DNA from: a virus | IMG/VR virus record: IMGVR_UViG_3300047550_000211 | Location: 1-46,130 of that record | Length of the DNA: 46,130 nt | Direction: 5' to 3' (one strand) | Shown here: positions 37-45,257 of the stretch, one piece after another | Position numbering within the stretch: the stretch's first letter is position 1 | Layout: the number at the start of each line of letters is the position of its first letter | Notes under the pieces: model-generated | Database searches by the model: none | Told to the model about the DNA's origin: nothing | Seen by the model: the letters and a program-made list of their open reading frames with translations, nothing else | Position numbers and translations under genes: made by a program

Positions 37-2376
37 TTGGCTACACCTGCACAGATCGACGAACAAGTAGCTTTAGAACGAGAGCAAATCAGGCAAGGAC
101 TCCAGCGCCTCAGAGATAACACTCGTAAGTTGCAAGAGCAAAGCTATGCTAGTGCTACTGTTTATGGTGTAACCTCTATTGATGCACTACTGCCTGCGCT
201 GGTTAAGTACATCGAAGAAAGCAGTGAGTACCGCCTAAAGCGTGGTTCTGGCCACCAGTTTGATGTCATCAAGAAGTATGTATCACAACTGGAACCACTG
301 GCTGCTGCAACCATTGCTCTCAAGCTGACCTTCGATAAGGTGTTTTCCACCAAGCAAGGTAGTGACCAGCTGCAAGCTGTATGCGATAGCATCGGTCACG
401 CTGTGGAATCAGAGTGTCAAATGCGGCACTATGAGAAGACTGCGCCTGGGTTGCTTGCTGTACTCAAAAAGAACTACTTCCATAAGTCCATTGGTACACA
501 GCAAAAGCTAACTGTCATCCAAACTCTGATGAACAGGTGTGAGGTACCAGAATGGGAGACTTGGGGTAGAGCTAATCGCATCAAACTAGGTGCGTGGTTA
601 CTCGATTGCATCATGCAAACTAGTGGCTGGTTCGTTAAAGATCTACGTCGCTTAGGTAAAGTCACTGTAACATTTGTTGCACCTACACCTGAGTTCCTTG
701 AGATCAGGGATAAGGTCATGAGAGATGCTGAACTATTTGCACCACTTGCATGGCCTATGCTTATAGAACCAAACGACTGGACTAACGAACGTGCTGGCGG
801 TTACCTACTCAATGAGGTAATGCGAGGCTATGACTTGGTTCGTAGGGGAGACTCCACCCGTCTACAGGGGGAGATACCCCTAGCCTTCCTGAATAAAATT
901 CAGAAGGTTGCTTATCAGATCAACCCCTTCACTTATGGGGTTGCTGAGAAGTTGGGAGAGATGGAACGCTCTGTCGGTAAGTTCCTCCCTGTTGTTCATC
1001 ATCCTCTGCCTGCTAAACCTGCTGACATTGATACCAACTACGATAGCCGTAAGGATTATCGGAGAAGAGCAGCGGAGGTGTTGAACTTACAAGCACAAGA
1101 ACCCAAGAAGTCATGTAGAACTCGCATGACTATGGAAGCAGCTAATAGGTTCAAGGATAGAGATAGATTCTTCTGTCCGTGGTCCTTTGACTACAGAGGT
1201 AGAGCTTATCCTATCCCTGCTTTTCTAACACCACAAGATACTGACTTCGGTAAATCATTACTGAGGTTTGCTGATGGGTCTTACATGACACCAGAAGCTG
1301 AGTCGTGGTTAGCGTTTCAAGTAGCTACTTGTTATGGGTTAGATAAAGCTACCATGTCTGAGCGATTAGCTTGGGTGGAGAATAACCTCACACTCATCAG
1401 CCGTATCGCTACTGATCCGATTGGGTCTTTACCAGAATGGGAAGCAGCAGAAGAACCATGGCAATTCTTAGCAAGTTGTGATGAGTATTATCATTGCGTG
1501 ATCGCAGCTGATAGACAATTCACATCACTGCCTGTTGCTGTTGATGCAACCTGTAGTGGTCTCCAGATCTTGGCTGGACTTGCACGAGATAAGTCAACTG
1601 CTAAGCTGGTAAATGTGTTACCAGGTGATAAACCTCAGGATGCCTATAAGGTAGTGGCTGAGGTTGCAATGCCATCAGTACCTGAGCGCTTGCGTCCCTA
1701 CTTAGATAGGAAGAAGACTAAGCGCTGTGTTATGACTATCCCTTACAATGCAAAGCCCTACTCTAACAGAGGATACATCAAAGAGGCTTTCTTGGAGGAT
1801 GGGATAGAGCTAGACAAAGAAGAGCTTACTCAAGTTGTTAAAGCAATTCGTTCAGCTATGGATGTGGTCGTACCAGGTCCTATGGCTGTTATGAAATGGA
1901 TTGAGACTGAGGTAGCAGCTGCTGTTAAGCGTGGTGCGCAACACCTAGAATGGGTTACTCCATCTGGGTTTGTTGTCTACCAAAAGCTTAACAAGAAGAA
2001 GTTCCAGTCTATGGAGCTGCAGCTATTGGGTCGTTGTAAGATGAAGGTGGCTGATGGAGAGACTGATGAGGTCGATCTGAATCACCACAAGAATGCAACT
2101 GCTCCTAACCTTATCCACTCACTTGATGCTTCACTGCTACACTTGAGTGCTCTACGTTTTGATGCCCCTATTGCTCTTATTCACGATTCTGTGCTTTGTC
2201 GTGCAACGGATATGTCTACCTTATCCACCATTGTACGAGAAACCTACATGCACTTGTTCGCAGAGCATGACTACCTACGAGACTTTGCCAAACACATTGG
2301 TGCAGAGTCTGACCCACCGATCATTGGTGATCTAGAACCAGAGACCGTGATCGAATCCACCTACTTCTTTTGTTAA
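37..2376 (+). CDS. T7-like single-subunit DNA-directed RNA polymerase
   Basis: This 779-residue protein would transcribe the middle and late phage genes after host polymerase has read the early region. Family hallmarks are visible: the FDYRGRAYP motif, the catalytic aspartate D503 in VAVDATCSG (T7 D537), K562 and Y570 in TKRCVMTIPY (T7 K631 and Y639), and H716-D717 in LIHDSV (T7 H811-D812). Length is shorter than T7 (883). The C-terminus ends YFFC rather than the T7 FAFA foot. The start is TTG at 37, chosen because GGAGAG lies 24-29, the upstream gene stops at 33, and no ATG is near. Its stop overlaps the ATG of the next gene (TTAATG). Confidence 0.97.
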   Translation: MATPAQIDEQVALEREQIRQGLQRLRDNTRKLQEQSYASATVYGVTSIDALLPALVKYIEESSEYRLKRGSGHQFDVIKKYVSQLEPLAAATIALKLTFDKVFSTKQGSDQLQAVCDSIGHAVESECQMRHYEKTAPGLLAVLKKNYFHKSIGTQQKLTVIQTLMNRCEVPEWETWGRANRIKLGAWLLDCIMQTSGWFVKDLRRLGKVTVTFVAPTPEFLEIRDKVMRDAELFAPLAWPMLIEPNDWTNERAGGYLLNEVMRGYDLVRRGDSTRLQGEIPLAFLNKIQKVAYQINPFTYGVAEKLGEMERSVGKFLPVVHHPLPAKPADIDTNYDSRKDYRRRAAEVLNLQAQEPKKSCRTRMTMEAANRFKDRDRFFCPWSFDYRGRAYPIPAFLTPQDTDFGKSLLRFADGSYMTPEAESWLAFQVATCYGLDKATMSERLAWVENNLTLISRIATDPIGSLPEWEAAEEPWQFLASCDEYYHCVIAADRQFTSLPVAVDATCSGLQILAGLARDKSTAKLVNVLPGDKPQDAYKVVAEVAMPSVPERLRPYLDRKKTKRCVMTIPYNAKPYSNRGYIKEAFLEDGIELDKEELTQVVKAIRSAMDVVVPGPMAVMKWIETEVAAAVKRGAQHLEWVTPSGFVVYQKLNKKKFQSMELQLLGRCKMKVADGETDEVDLNHHKNATAPNLIHSLDASLLHLSALRFDAPIALIHDSVLCRATDMSTLSTIVRETYMHLFAEHDYLRDFAKHIGAESDPPIIGDLEPETVIESTYFFC

Positions 2377-14315: not shown

Positions 14316-14472
14316 CACAGTTGATGATCAAACCAATCAAGAACCTGCGCCTTATATGAAGCGCACTAAGGTTGGTGAACCCACCATCGGTCGTTCCCCC
14401 GATTTCGTTAAGACTGTAGGTCTTGGAAATCTAACCGTTATCACAGCAAATGGCAAACGAAATTACACTTAA
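14239..14472 (+). CDS. Small hypothetical protein between portal and scaffold
   Basis: A 77-residue polar protein (MNKQTPTRSQRSNKKATSPE...) without a recognised motif. Its 5' end lies inside the portal gene in another frame, and its 3' end overlaps the scaffold start by 23 bases. It accounts for the 134 bases between those genes, which otherwise would be empty. It could be a minor head protein; no evidence beyond position. Confidence 0.55.
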   Translation: MNKQTPTRSQRSNKKATSPEEVPSVDTVDDQTNQEPAPYMKRTKVGEPTIGRSPDFVKTVGLGNLTVITANGKRNYT

Positions 14473-15211
14473 TCCGTATGAACAAGCAGAGGGTGAGTTC
14501 TCTGCTGAAGAGCTTGATTCTCTGGCAGTTGGTGAGAAGCTAGCTGAGCAAGAACAACAACTCCTGGCTGGTAAGTACAAGTCAGCTGAGGAGTTGGAAC
14601 GTGGTTACCTTGAACTACAGAAACGTCTTAGTAGTAAGGAAGCGCCTGAAGTAGAGGCACAAGAGGAAGCACCTCAAGAAGAGGAGCAACCTGAGGAGAA
14701 CGATGAGGTAGATCTCTATGATACTATTATGGAGTCCTACCGTACTGGTGAATGGGATCCTGAACTTGTTAGCAAAGTTGAGGGTATGAACCCTGTTGAT
14801 GTAGCTAACATGTTCCTTGAGAAAGGTGGTGCTACTCAAACACCACAAGCTACCTCAGATGATATCGCACAGATCCAAGAGTCAGTTGGTGGTGACACTG
14901 AATACCAAAACATGATTCAATGGGCTAGTCAAAATCTATCTGAACAAGAGGTGGCTATGTATGATGCTGTTATGGATCGTGGTGACCCTCTTGCTATGTT
15001 CTTTGCTGCTCAAGCATTGAACGCACGTTACCAAGATGCTGTTGGTTATGATGGGGAGTTGCTTGCTGGCACCGCTCCTAAGAACACCACTGATGTCTTC
15101 CGCTCTCAAGCAGAGCTGGTAGCTGCAATGAGTGATCCTCGCTACGATAAAGATCCAGCTTATCGTGCCGATGTAGCAGACAAACTGGAACGATCCAACA
15201 TTCAATTCTAA
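14450..15211 (+). CDS. Capsid assembly scaffolding protein, T7 gp9-like
   Basis: A 253-residue very acidic protein that would guide procapsid assembly and then leave. The first third is Glu/Gln-rich helical sequence (EAQEEAPQEEEQPEEND near 75-91), followed by VDLYDTIMESYRTGEWDPEL, and it ends KLERSNIQF. Composition, length (T7 gp9 has 307) and position between portal and capsid fit the family. In this phage an auxiliary block of photosynthesis and small genes is inserted between scaffold and major capsid gene. Confidence 0.88.
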   Translation: MANEITLNPYEQAEGEFSAEELDSLAVGEKLAEQEQQLLAGKYKSAEELERGYLELQKRLSSKEAPEVEAQEEAPQEEEQPEENDEVDLYDTIMESYRTGEWDPELVSKVEGMNPVDVANMFLEKGGATQTPQATSDDIAQIQESVGGDTEYQNMIQWASQNLSEQEVAMYDAVMDRGDPLAMFFAAQALNARYQDAVGYDGELLAGTAPKNTTDVFRSQAELVAAMSDPRYDKDPAYRADVADKLERSNIQF

Positions 15212-42520: not shown

Positions 42521-42721
42521 ATGAGTAGAACATATCGTAAGCAACCCTTACGTAATCAATTCCGTCATCCTCGAACCTTTAACGAACGTAAACAAGTATT
42601 AGTATCTAACGATTACTACGATACTCAATATCGGGTAAGTACTCGTAATCGTTATATCCCTACAGCATGGGATGATATCACTGCCACCTCTATCTACCAA
42701 AACGATCACAAGTCCCAATGA
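42521..42721 (+). CDS. Small basic hypothetical protein before thyX
   Basis: A 66-residue protein rich in Arg, Tyr, Asn and Thr (MSRTYRKQPLRNQFRHPRTF...), ending TSIYQNDHKSQ. Not recognised. Its TGA overlaps the ATG of thyX (CAATGAC), so the two genes form a small operon downstream of the terminator cluster. Charge suggests nucleic-acid binding, with no other support. Confidence 0.72.
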   Translation: MSRTYRKQPLRNQFRHPRTFNERKQVLVSNDYYDTQYRVSTRNRYIPTAWDDITATSIYQNDHKSQ

Positions 42722-43353
42722 CTACCCACCAAGTCAAACTAGTCCACATCACCCCTAACGCTGAAGAGCTTATCTCTTATATGGCTCGTGTTAGCAACCC
42801 TTCTAACCAATCAAACACTGAGACCTCTCAACGACTCATTAGGTATCTAATCGAGCATCAACATTGGTCTCCATTTGAAATGGTTAACATGTGTGTAGAG
42901 ATTAACACTACTAGAAGTATAGCTGCACAGATCCTTAGGCATAGGTCCTTTAGCTTCCAGGAGTTTAGTCAACGGTATGCAAAAGTAACAGCAGATCCTA
43001 TCATGCCTGAACTGCGTCTTCAAGATCATACAAATAGACAGTCATCGTTGATAGATACAGAAGGTAAGTTGACTGACTACTTTAGTGCTGCTATTGAAAA
43101 TATCTTTGCTAATAGCCAAGCAGTCTATGAAGAGATGATAGCAGCTGGGGTAGCTAAAGAATGTGCTAGGGAAGTACTACCACTAGCTACACCGACTCGA
43201 CTGTACATGAATGGTACAATTAGGTCCTGGATTCATTACTGTCAACTACGGTGCGGTAATGGGACACAGCTGGAGCATAGGATCATCGCAGAAGGGGTCT
43301 ATAAGCTCCTACAAGAGCATCTTCCTAGTGTGTGTGCAGCTTTAGGCGTTTGA
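42718..43353 (+). CDS. thyX: FAD-dependent thymidylate synthase ThyX
   Basis: A 211-residue flavin-dependent thymidylate synthase that methylates dUMP to dTMP. The ThyX signature RHRSFSFQEFSQRY lies at 74-87, preceded by HWSPFEMVNMCVEI, and the C-terminal LRCGNGTQLEHRIIAEGVY region contains further substrate-binding residues. Together with the RNR subunits and host DNA breakdown it provides thymidine nucleotides. It is placed apart from the other nucleotide genes, after the terminase, near the presumed genome end. A row of GGGCGTT repeats starts at its 3' end. Confidence 0.95.
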   Translation: MTTHQVKLVHITPNAEELISYMARVSNPSNQSNTETSQRLIRYLIEHQHWSPFEMVNMCVEINTTRSIAAQILRHRSFSFQEFSQRYAKVTADPIMPELRLQDHTNRQSSLIDTEGKLTDYFSAAIENIFANSQAVYEEMIAAGVAKECAREVLPLATPTRLYMNGTIRSWIHYCQLRCGNGTQLEHRIIAEGVYKLLQEHLPSVCAALGV

Positions 43354-43389
43354 CTGTTTAGAGGGGCGTTGTAGGGCGTTCTAGGGGTT
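43344..43389 (+). repeat. Short direct repeats around GGGCGTT
   Basis: AGGCGTT (43344-43350), GGGCGTT (43364-43370), GGGCGTT (43374-43380) and AGGGGTT (43383-43389) lie at spacings close to 10 or 20 bases. They straddle the thyX stop. T7 has arrays of short repeats next to its terminal redundancy, so these may mark a genome end. Confidence 0.5.
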
Positions 43390-44030
43390 CCTTAATTTTT
43401 AGCATAAATTTAACAAGCCTTATATCGCCAGATGGCCCCGCAATTCCCCCCAGTACCCCTACCTTACACTTAGGGACGCACACCAGAGTTATCGAGTGCT
43501 GTTTGATTGTTTCTCATCAGGACGGAGCTATTGAGAATACCAGTGGCAAGGAGTTGCGATCAAGGACGCCCAGCGTATGTGTAGTAGTAGCACTGTCATC
43601 ATCTATAGTTACGCCTTATTGAGAATGAATTGCAATAAGCACTGAGTTAGTTGAGTACAGTGATAAGGTATTATTATCAATTAGCGCTGTATGATAAGAT
43701 GTAGGTATAGGTAGATATCAAGTGATCTGTATGGCCAGCCTATAACAGTTAGACAGCAGCGCTATAACGCTCTCAGCCACGCCTAGGAGCCGCTATAAGG
43801 CCCCTTCAACAGTTAATAGGTACACTGAGCCCTGTAGTACTGTAGAGGCACCTTACAGGCGATTGTTAACAAGCGGTGCTGAGTGGTTCAAATTTCACAC
43901 TCATGCTTTTTGTTACTTATTAAACAGCACTGTTTTACTTCTGTACACCCAATATCGGTACGGTTCGGATCGATAAGGAACGCTGATAGGGTCAATTAGG
44001 GCGCTACACGGATCCACTGGGTTCTTGGGA

Positions 44031-44060
44031 TTGACACAACGGCCTAGGGGCTGGTATGTT
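44031..44060 (+). promoter_or_regulatory. Host sigma-70-type early promoter
   Basis: A perfect -35 TTGACA (44031-44036), an 18-base spacer and a -10 TATGTT (44055-44060) preceded by TGG, which makes an extended -10. It points to the early genes and would let host RNA polymerase start infection. Transcription should begin near 44067. Confidence 0.78.
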
Positions 44061-44069
44061 AGATGAGTC

Positions 44070-44238
44070 GGTGGGGGGAGCGGCAGTCGCCACCACCAGC
44101 ACCTTGATAATAGAATAGTTGTGGTTCGTCACAAGACGGAACTAGCGGAGCGAGCGATCCCGCGAGTAGTTATAGGTAGCAACTCTACCTGACTACACGA
44201 ACCCGTATCTTATGTTATGTGCAGAGCCACATGCACAT
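44070..44238 (+). promoter_or_regulatory. Structured early leader RNA
   Basis: Directly after the promoter lie: GGTGG/CCACC (44070-44094); a closing stem GGTTCGT (44123-44129) with ACGAACC (44197-44203) that encloses two hairpins, AACTAGCGG/CCGC-TAGTT (44140-44171) and AGGTAG/CTACCT (44174-44190), forming a three-way junction; and a perfect hairpin ATGTGCA/TGCACAT (44217-44238). The last ends 36 bases before the ribosome site. Possible roles are RNase III processing, mRNA protection, or regulation of the first early genes. Confidence 0.55.
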
Positions 44239-44274
44239 TAAACATTAGATCATGGCACCTGTAAACACTATTAT

Positions 44275-44280
44275 GGAGGT
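44275..44280 (+). promoter_or_regulatory. Ribosome binding site of the first early gene
   Basis: GGAGGT directly abuts the ATG at 44281, which would leave no spacing, but lies an ideal 6-7 bases before the in-frame ATG at 44287. It therefore fixes the start at 44287. Confidence 0.8.
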
Positions 44281-44286
44281 ATGCTT

Positions 44287-44502
44287 ATGCCTACTTACAC
44301 ATTCGATGACCTACGTGCTGCTGTGCAAGACTGCACCAGCTATGACTTAGTTCAACGCATGGGTGATGACTACGAGGAGTATGTATTAATCGATCCTCAT
44401 GGATATATGGATGGTGATCCGTTCTACGAGTTGGAAGATGTAGAAGCTTTCATTCGTGCTAATGATGACATCGATGCTTACCTTTACGGACTGACTAAAT
44501 GA
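44287..44502 (+). CDS. First early protein, acidic, unknown
   Basis: A 71-residue very acidic protein (MPTYTFDDLRAAVQDCTSYD...) with clusters DDYEEYVLIDPHG and NDDIDAYLYG. Not recognised. Strong ribosome site and first position after the early promoter imply high early expression, as for T7 host-takeover or antirestriction proteins. Strong negative charge could fit DNA mimicry, which is speculation. It shares LIDPHGYMDG-like wording with VILDPFDSYSD in the next protein. The ATGA overlap couples it to that gene. Confidence 0.8.
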   Translation: MPTYTFDDLRAAVQDCTSYDLVQRMGDDYEEYVLIDPHGYMDGDPFYELEDVEAFIRANDDIDAYLYGLTK

Positions 44503-44648
44503 CTTATTACATTGCACGTGTTGATGAGTATGGGCATTGGGTTATCCTTGATCCATTCGATTCATACAGTGATGCTGAGATGGTATTTGATAGCTACTGT
44601 GACATGTACCCACATGCTTATGTAGATATCATCAGCTCCACTAACTAG
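44499..44648 (+). CDS. Small early protein, unknown
   Basis: A 49-residue acidic, aromatic-rich protein (MTYYIARVDEYGHWVILDPF...) that starts in the previous stop. The segment VILDPFDSYSDAEMVFDSY resembles VLIDPHGYMDGDPFYELED of the preceding protein, so the two may be distant relatives or a duplicated fold. No function known. A 30-base gap follows before the antirestriction-like gene. Confidence 0.68.
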   Translation: MTYYIARVDEYGHWVILDPFDSYSDAEMVFDSYCDMYPHAYVDIISSTN

Positions 44649-44678: not shown

Positions 44679-45257
44679 ATGACTACCACCACTGTTTCTA
44701 CCTTTATGCTCAAGGGTTCTTCATTGTTGTCACACAATGCTGAGTATATGGAATTGATCAATCGCGGGGAGTCGACACGCACTGATATGATCAAGGACGC
44801 AGGCTATGTGTACGACAACGGTAAGGCTATGTACACTGACTACTACACTGAGCTGCTCAACGCACGAGGTGTAGTACCTACCACCGATACTGATACTATG
44901 GAACAAGAGTACGATGACCTCAGCAATGAGGACAAGGATCTCTATGATGCTATCACTGACAAGCTTGGTGAGAAGTGGACTCATGAGGAGACTATTGAGT
45001 TCATGGAGGAGCTTAATGACATCGGTATCACTACTGCTAGTGAGTTCGAGGATGCTTATGAGTACACACATGATAGCTACTCATCGTATGCTGAGAAAGA
45101 GTTCGCTGAGTACTGGTGTGTCGAAGTTATGAATGCACAGATACCTGACTGTGTGTATGCTGCTGTAGATTGGCAGAGTGTATGGGATCATGATTTGCGT
45201 TATGACTTCCACTCCATTGAGACTGTCAACGGTACTTTCTTCTTTCGTAACAACTGA
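44679..45257 (+). CDS. ArdA-like antirestriction protein with extra N-terminal half
   Basis: A 192-residue acidic protein. The second half (about 95-192) resembles ArdA antirestriction proteins: TASEFEDAYEYTHDSYSSYA, EFAEYWCVEVMN, and AAVDWQSVWDHDLRYDFHSIETVNGTFFF. ArdA mimics DNA and blocks type I restriction enzymes. The first half (KGSSLLSHNAEYMELINRGE... YDNGKAMYTDYYTELLNARG) is not ArdA and unknown to me. It occupies the early position where T7 carries Ocr. Family assignment is by sequence resemblance, so moderate certainty. It overlaps the next start (TGATGG). Confidence 0.7.
   Translation: MTTTTVSTFMLKGSSLLSHNAEYMELINRGESTRTDMIKDAGYVYDNGKAMYTDYYTELLNARGVVPTTDTDTMEQEYDDLSNEDKDLYDAITDKLGEKWTHEETIEFMEELNDIGITTASEFEDAYEYTHDSYSSYAEKEFAEYWCVEVMNAQIPDCVYAAVDWQSVWDHDLRYDFHSIETVNGTFFFRNN

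Follow-up and report, generated by a model that had tools for sequence, protein, structure and literature searches.

A cyanophage early gene predicted to join a cyAbrB-type N-terminal domain to an ArdA-type C-terminal domain

Results

The locus and its relatives

The window analysed here, an IMG/VR record of 46,130 bases taken at its full length, comes from a T7-like cyanophage, as judged by a match of its RNA polymerase to phrog_414 at E = 1e-224 and by the presence of ThyX. On the plus strand at 44679-45257 it carries an open reading frame of 192 aa with an ATG start, whose product is predicted to be a chimera consisting of a cyAbrB N-terminal domain, an acidic linker and an ArdA C-terminal domain. 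This ORF is a real gene, and proteins related to its product, with 39-86% identity, are encoded at 64 IMG/VR loci. Relatives are also present in the Synechococcus phages DSL-LC07 (71% identity), S-CBP1 (54%), S-B28, WH11-B and 7B11-B (43-45%), and in three of these five phages the depositors annotated the protein as an "antirestriction protein". Judged by this gene, the nearest named relatives of the window are Synechococcus autographiviruses.

In the window the gene lies downstream of thyX (42718-43353, plus strand), from which it is separated by a gap of about 0.9 kb without obvious genes (43354-44280) and by two small acidic ORFs on the same strand, the first of 73 aa (44281-44502, phrog_35755, function not assigned) and the second of 49 aa (44499-44648), so that the chimera gene comes third among the ORFs of the early block. 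The gene for the T7-type RNA polymerase (37-2376, plus strand) is located at the opposite end of the linear record and follows the early block in related contigs. In contigs of sufficient length the order is terL, thyX and the chimera gene, followed by the genes for RNA polymerase, SSB, endonuclease and primase, the exception being the outlier L064, where an integrase is found near the chimera gene. The original prediction had placed the gene in an early block that precedes the gene for the RNA polymerase, at the position of Ocr in T7. The gene order of the related contigs bears out this placement, with the amendment that the gene does not take the first place in the block; the matches in Pfam, PHROG and NCBIfam include no Ocr family and so give no sign that the two proteins are related in sequence.

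By analogy with P-SSP7, in which a 728 bp region and a direct repeat precede the first ORF (PMC3350473), the left end of the genome likely falls within the gap at 43354-44280. The gap contains a promoter-like site, TTGACA-18-TATGTT (44031-44060, plus strand), which is unique in the window where 0.09 occurrences are expected for a pattern that was picked after the site had been seen in a first scan. With a looser pattern, a promoter-like site was present about 650-1000 nt upstream in 27 of 57 relatives, which are not independent of one another, versus 5% of shuffled regions. The number of promoter-like sites in the gap was within chance expectation, and a terminator scan of the gap found none.

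The C-terminal half is of the ArdA type

A search of PDB sequences with the phage sequence returned chance matches only. Because the 192-aa protein taken singly also matched nothing in Pfam or NCBIfam, intermediate relatives were needed to name its domains. Searching with the N-terminal half retrieved a sister clade of proteins of about 157 aa, and hhalign matched this clade to the window family along their entire length at E = 4.3e-29. Relatives match the anti-restriction family phrog_36653 at up to 2.8e-5, mostly across their last ~75 residues, and members of the sister clade match PF07275 (ArdA) with a best E value of 7.7e-7, one of them (L145, 30.3 bits) passing the Pfam cut-off below which the window protein stays. 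When compared by hhalign with ten aligned ArdA proteins, from Rhizobium phage Pasto and from genomes of the cyanobacterial phylum, the window family scored 30.8 and the sister family 59.2, the highest of 60 column shuffles being 21.7 and 23.5, respectively. For the window family this alignment spans residues 117-192 only, and the N-terminal domain of ArdA (the IYVACLxxYNxGxLHGxW region) was not found in the family, which has the cyAbrB-type residues 8-66 instead.

Modelled with AlphaFold2, the window protein reaches a mean pLDDT of 85.8, and the best PDB matches of the model are both chains of ArdA 2w82, with probabilities of 0.95 and 0.97 and E values of 0.06-0.07. In a viral structure library two small cyanophage-type proteins come out on top (1.6e-7 and 6.7e-6) and annotated antirestriction proteins follow. 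ArdA was absent among the PDB matches listed for the model of a sister-clade protein (pLDDT 89.7). Residues ~96-192 (44964-45254, plus strand, net charge -18) are thus homologous to the C-terminal part of ArdA, an assignment that is drawn mainly from sequence and receives moderate support from structure, because the E value of the window model was only 0.06-0.07 and the sister model listed no ArdA. The resemblance to ArdA that had been predicted for this half is upheld to that extent. The protein does not contain a whole ArdA but its C-terminal part only, and in this it is comparable to "sArdC".

The N-terminal half is of the cyAbrB type

The first lead to the N-terminal half was a weak tblastn match to a phage protein named "AbrB family transcriptional regulator". 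This protein has the AbrB-like domain PF14250 at residues 46-105, its C-terminal part, and the window family aligns to its N-terminal part, outside PF14250. Against a cyAbrB alignment that was built from Acaryochloris plasmid sequences and then from 80 genome loci, hhalign scored the window family at 36.3 (E 3.9e-5; shuffles at most 21.4) and the sister family at 63.7 (E 3.6e-10; shuffles at most 20.9) for the N-terminal domain. In the reverse search, a profile made from the phage N-terminal domains alone, in which one row (L132) is off by one residue from its source at the N-terminal end, beyond the domain, matched 99 of 194 genomes of the cyanobacterial phylum at E <= 0.1 with a best value of 1.5e-18, and matched single host ORFs at ~1e-20. 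The host ORFs found in this way encode cyAbrB proteins of the usual kind, ~120 aa long. The strongest matches (1e-18) are in genomes of ~1.6-3 Mb, a size as in picocyanobacteria, which may point to such hosts. The phage domain and cyAbrB have the pattern LTGxxLL...CGY...FYxxLLxAKG in common, in the same order.

On this profile and alignment evidence, residues ~8-66 (44700-44876, plus strand, net charge -2) constitute a cyAbrB N-terminal domain; the model places helices at 13-28, 34-40 and 52-62 in it, with a pLDDT of ~91, and a profile of the cyAbrB N-terminal domain found no solved relative in the PDB. The original prediction had called this half unknown and not ArdA. The second description agrees with the confinement of the ArdA alignment to the C-terminal half, and the first gives way to cyAbrB. 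The DNA-binding domain of cyAbrB sits C-terminally (PMC4284466), and this AbrB domain (PF14250) was not found in the phage chimera by the domain searches. The cysteine of the CGY motif is replaced in the window family, by alanine in 25 of 26 members and by serine in the other, and is kept in 59 of 80 sister ORFs. The redox site of cyAbrB2 is C34 (PMC13421787), which in our reading of the alignment would be the CGY cysteine.

The charge is confined to the linker and the C-terminal part

The strong negative charge that had been foreseen was found in the sequence, with a net charge of -29 in 192 aa, or -15.1 per 100 aa, the ten ArdA proteins having -12 to -17 per 100 aa. It is unevenly distributed: the 59 aa of residues 8-66 sum to -2, versus -27 in the following 126 aa, which comprise the acidic linker (residues 67-95, 44877-44963, plus strand, 29 aa with net -9) and the 97 aa of the C-terminal part. 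The same split between a near-neutral N-terminus and an acidic remainder is seen in the window family and the sister clade alike, and six host cyAbrB N-terminal domains carry 0 to +11 per 100 aa. We considered the N-terminal half as an extension of a DNA mimic and rejected this because the domain is near neutral, a property that, by sequence, argues for an adaptor or docking part.

Two small ORFs directly upstream (44281-44648) are strongly acidic as well, at -19 and -16 per 100 aa, and could possibly encode further mimics. An acidic sequence does not by itself prove DNA mimicry, because an unrelated ORF of the window (14450-15211, 253 aa) is nearly as acidic, at -14.6 per 100 aa.

The two domains occur in other combinations

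By profile, 65 of the 80 ORFs matched by the sister family have the cyAbrB domain, and most of the remaining 15 bear a different N-terminus that is found also in S-PM2 and S-SZBM1. The proteins of S-TIM5 and P-TIM68 are without the cyAbrB domain, and some other phages have a small protein with an ArdA tail, or a full ArdA. The alternative N-terminus on the S-PM2-like ArdA tails (L367, L368, L350, L354-L362) reads TxNYKExxxxxTVExIDELLEDNYALDDILEFID. In one contig (L326) the chimera gene is adjoined by T4-like baseplate genes, and apart from the chimera gene the flanks of the sister-clade contigs have no gene in common with the window, so the chimera is not confined to one phage family. A tree of the ArdA tail has too few columns to decide between a single origin of the fusion and multiple origins. 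The chimera pattern had 27 matches in host genomes, of which none was confirmed, and thus no host or prophage origin was seen.

The cyAbrB N-terminal domain seems to be a general, portable host module. By our reading of the sequences, one host genome encodes proteins with the domain, 589 and 1110 aa long, that also contain a membrane segment and helical repeats, and in another genome the domain belongs to a 388-aa protein that is BRCT-like (these multidomain proteins are located in L283 and L284:1469-2635). Full cyAbrB homologs are present in viral contigs, accounting for at least 54 of 71 ORFs (L373-L440), and may be likened to the H-NS and Lsr2 proteins that phages carry. Some phage proteins, 133-142 aa long, combine a cyAbrB-type N-terminus with an unrelated tail (L322:13535, L321:7911, L442:1965), and the first of these contigs encodes an ArdA chimera besides. 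A viral protein of 233 aa (L421:1049) has a cyAbrB-type domain in mid-chain.

Discussion

The domain architecture of the protein is well supported, and its target and effect can be proposed from it. Our leading reading, to which we assign a probability of roughly 0.45, is that of an early counter-defence protein which binds host cyAbrB and confronts it with a DNA mimic, relieving silencing, type I restriction, or both. In cyanobacteria, cyAbrB2 coats AT-rich DNA in the manner of H-NS, and the authors of that study propose a role against foreign DNA (PMC11368403). They also describe an interaction between cyAbrB1 and cyAbrB2, and on the oligomerization of cyAbrB2 they state that biochemical data do not exist. 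Silencers truncated to their dimerization domain, such as H-NST, are dominant negatives or antagonists (PMC7074111), and the C-terminal domain of ArdA by itself protects against type I restriction, with dimerization predicted (PMC12548430).

In the proposed mechanism, the N-terminal domain would dock on host cyAbrB, probably through cyAbrB-cyAbrB contacts, and the ArdA-type domain would act as the DNA mimic. Docking could bring this strongly negative mimic up to the face by which cyAbrB binds DNA and so loosen the hold of cyAbrB on incoming phage DNA, and the ArdA-type domain may additionally inhibit type I restriction enzymes in the manner of sArdC. We infer the docking role from the neutrality of the N-terminal domain, from its occurrence as a portable module in host and phage proteins, and from the exchange of N-termini on the ArdA tails. 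The reading as a whole builds on the two domain assignments, the missing AbrB DNA-binding part, the uneven charge and the conserved early position downstream of a promoter-like site. It is weakened by the alanine that replaces the motif cysteine in the window clade, although most of the sister set keeps the cysteine, and by the modest ArdA match of the window model and its absence from the matches listed for the sister model. Binding of cyAbrB, DNA mimicry, relief of silencing and inhibition of restriction would all be activities of the phage protein on this reading. The suggestion that the N-terminal half adds a second target is supported, and the idea of another defence system as that target needs correction: any such target would most likely be cyAbrB, the nucleoid protein of the host, and not a defence of the nuclease type, because the N-terminal half is a cyAbrB domain.

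Another explanation, possible though somewhat doubtful, is that the protein acts purely against restriction, the ArdA part inhibiting type I enzymes and the cyAbrB-like domain being a mere scaffold for folding or dimerization in place of the ArdA N-terminal domain. This is helped by the activity of sArdC alone against EcoKI and EcoR124II (PMC12548430), by the related tails that stand nearly alone or carry another N-terminus (S-PM2, S-TIM5, NATL2A-133), and by an early position that suits the shielding of entering DNA. However, a domain of a host regulator is an odd choice of scaffold, it is conserved within the family to the same degree as the remainder of the protein, and being neutral it adds no length to the DNA mimic. 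An unlikely third explanation is a regulator of transcription that uses its cyAbrB-type domain to enter the cyAbrB complexes of the host and redirect promoters of host or phage, its ArdA part being aimed at RNA polymerase or another DNA-binding protein and not at defence. Carbon and nitrogen metabolism are under the control of cyAbrB (PMC13421787), full cyAbrB homologs are also phage-borne, and, according to work cited in PMC12548430, chromosomal ArdA proteins alter gene expression in E. coli; yet the chimera has no recognised DNA-binding domain, and its early location beside small ORFs does not discriminate. That the likeness to cyAbrB arose in a small helical domain by chance or convergence is very improbable, for although the domain has no more than ~55 aa and the window sequence alone has no database match, the reverse profile reaches E ~1e-18, the shuffles stay below the real score, and the motif pattern is shared in its order.

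A chimeric anti-silencer, made from a domain captured from the H-NS-like cyAbrB of the host and a DNA mimic, may be present in several cyanophage lineages, which is a tentative proposal. If this anti-silencer reading is true, cyAbrB is a xenogeneic silencer against phages, and it is answered by a protein that combines the dominant negative with the DNA mimic. Silencing of foreign DNA by cyAbrB in cyanobacteria is at present a suggestion (PMC11368403), and the question is testable in cultured pairs, S-CBP1 with CB0101 and WH11-B and 7B11-B with WH7803. The parts are known already and the combination of cyAbrB with ArdA appears to be new: among the open-access papers retrieved on ArdA or AbrB in cyanophages and on silencing by cyAbrB, no title or abstract mentions this architecture. 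From the exchange of heads, ArdA tails look like a module placed on different N-termini, so that "antirestriction" annotations in cyanophages would be read differently. Taken from sequence and model, our leading reading suggests one viral protein set against two host barriers.

Comparison with known systems

Among systems already described, sArdC (PMC12548430) likewise consists of the ArdA C-terminal domain only, is acidic and has about 90-115 aa. It stands alone in bacterial chromosomes, whereas the cyanophage version is fused to a cyAbrB N-terminal domain. ArdA itself (PF07275; Tn916 ArdA, PDB 2w82) has a homologous C-terminal part and a like net charge per residue, but the chimera has another domain in place of the ArdA N-terminal domain. 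Its N-terminal domain is homologous to that of cyAbrB1 and cyAbrB2, from which the chimera differs in that PF14250 is missing, the motif cysteine is lost in the window clade and an acidic tail is gained. H-NST and other truncated silencers (PMC7074111) offer the analogy of a mobile-element protein that keeps the silencer domain without the DNA-binding part; they belong to a different silencer family, H-NST has no DNA-mimic domain, and antagonism of a silencer is putative for the chimera. Ocr of T7 is likewise an acidic early protein whose gene is upstream of the phage RNA polymerase gene, whereas the chimera has two domains and is encoded by the third ORF of its block rather than the first.
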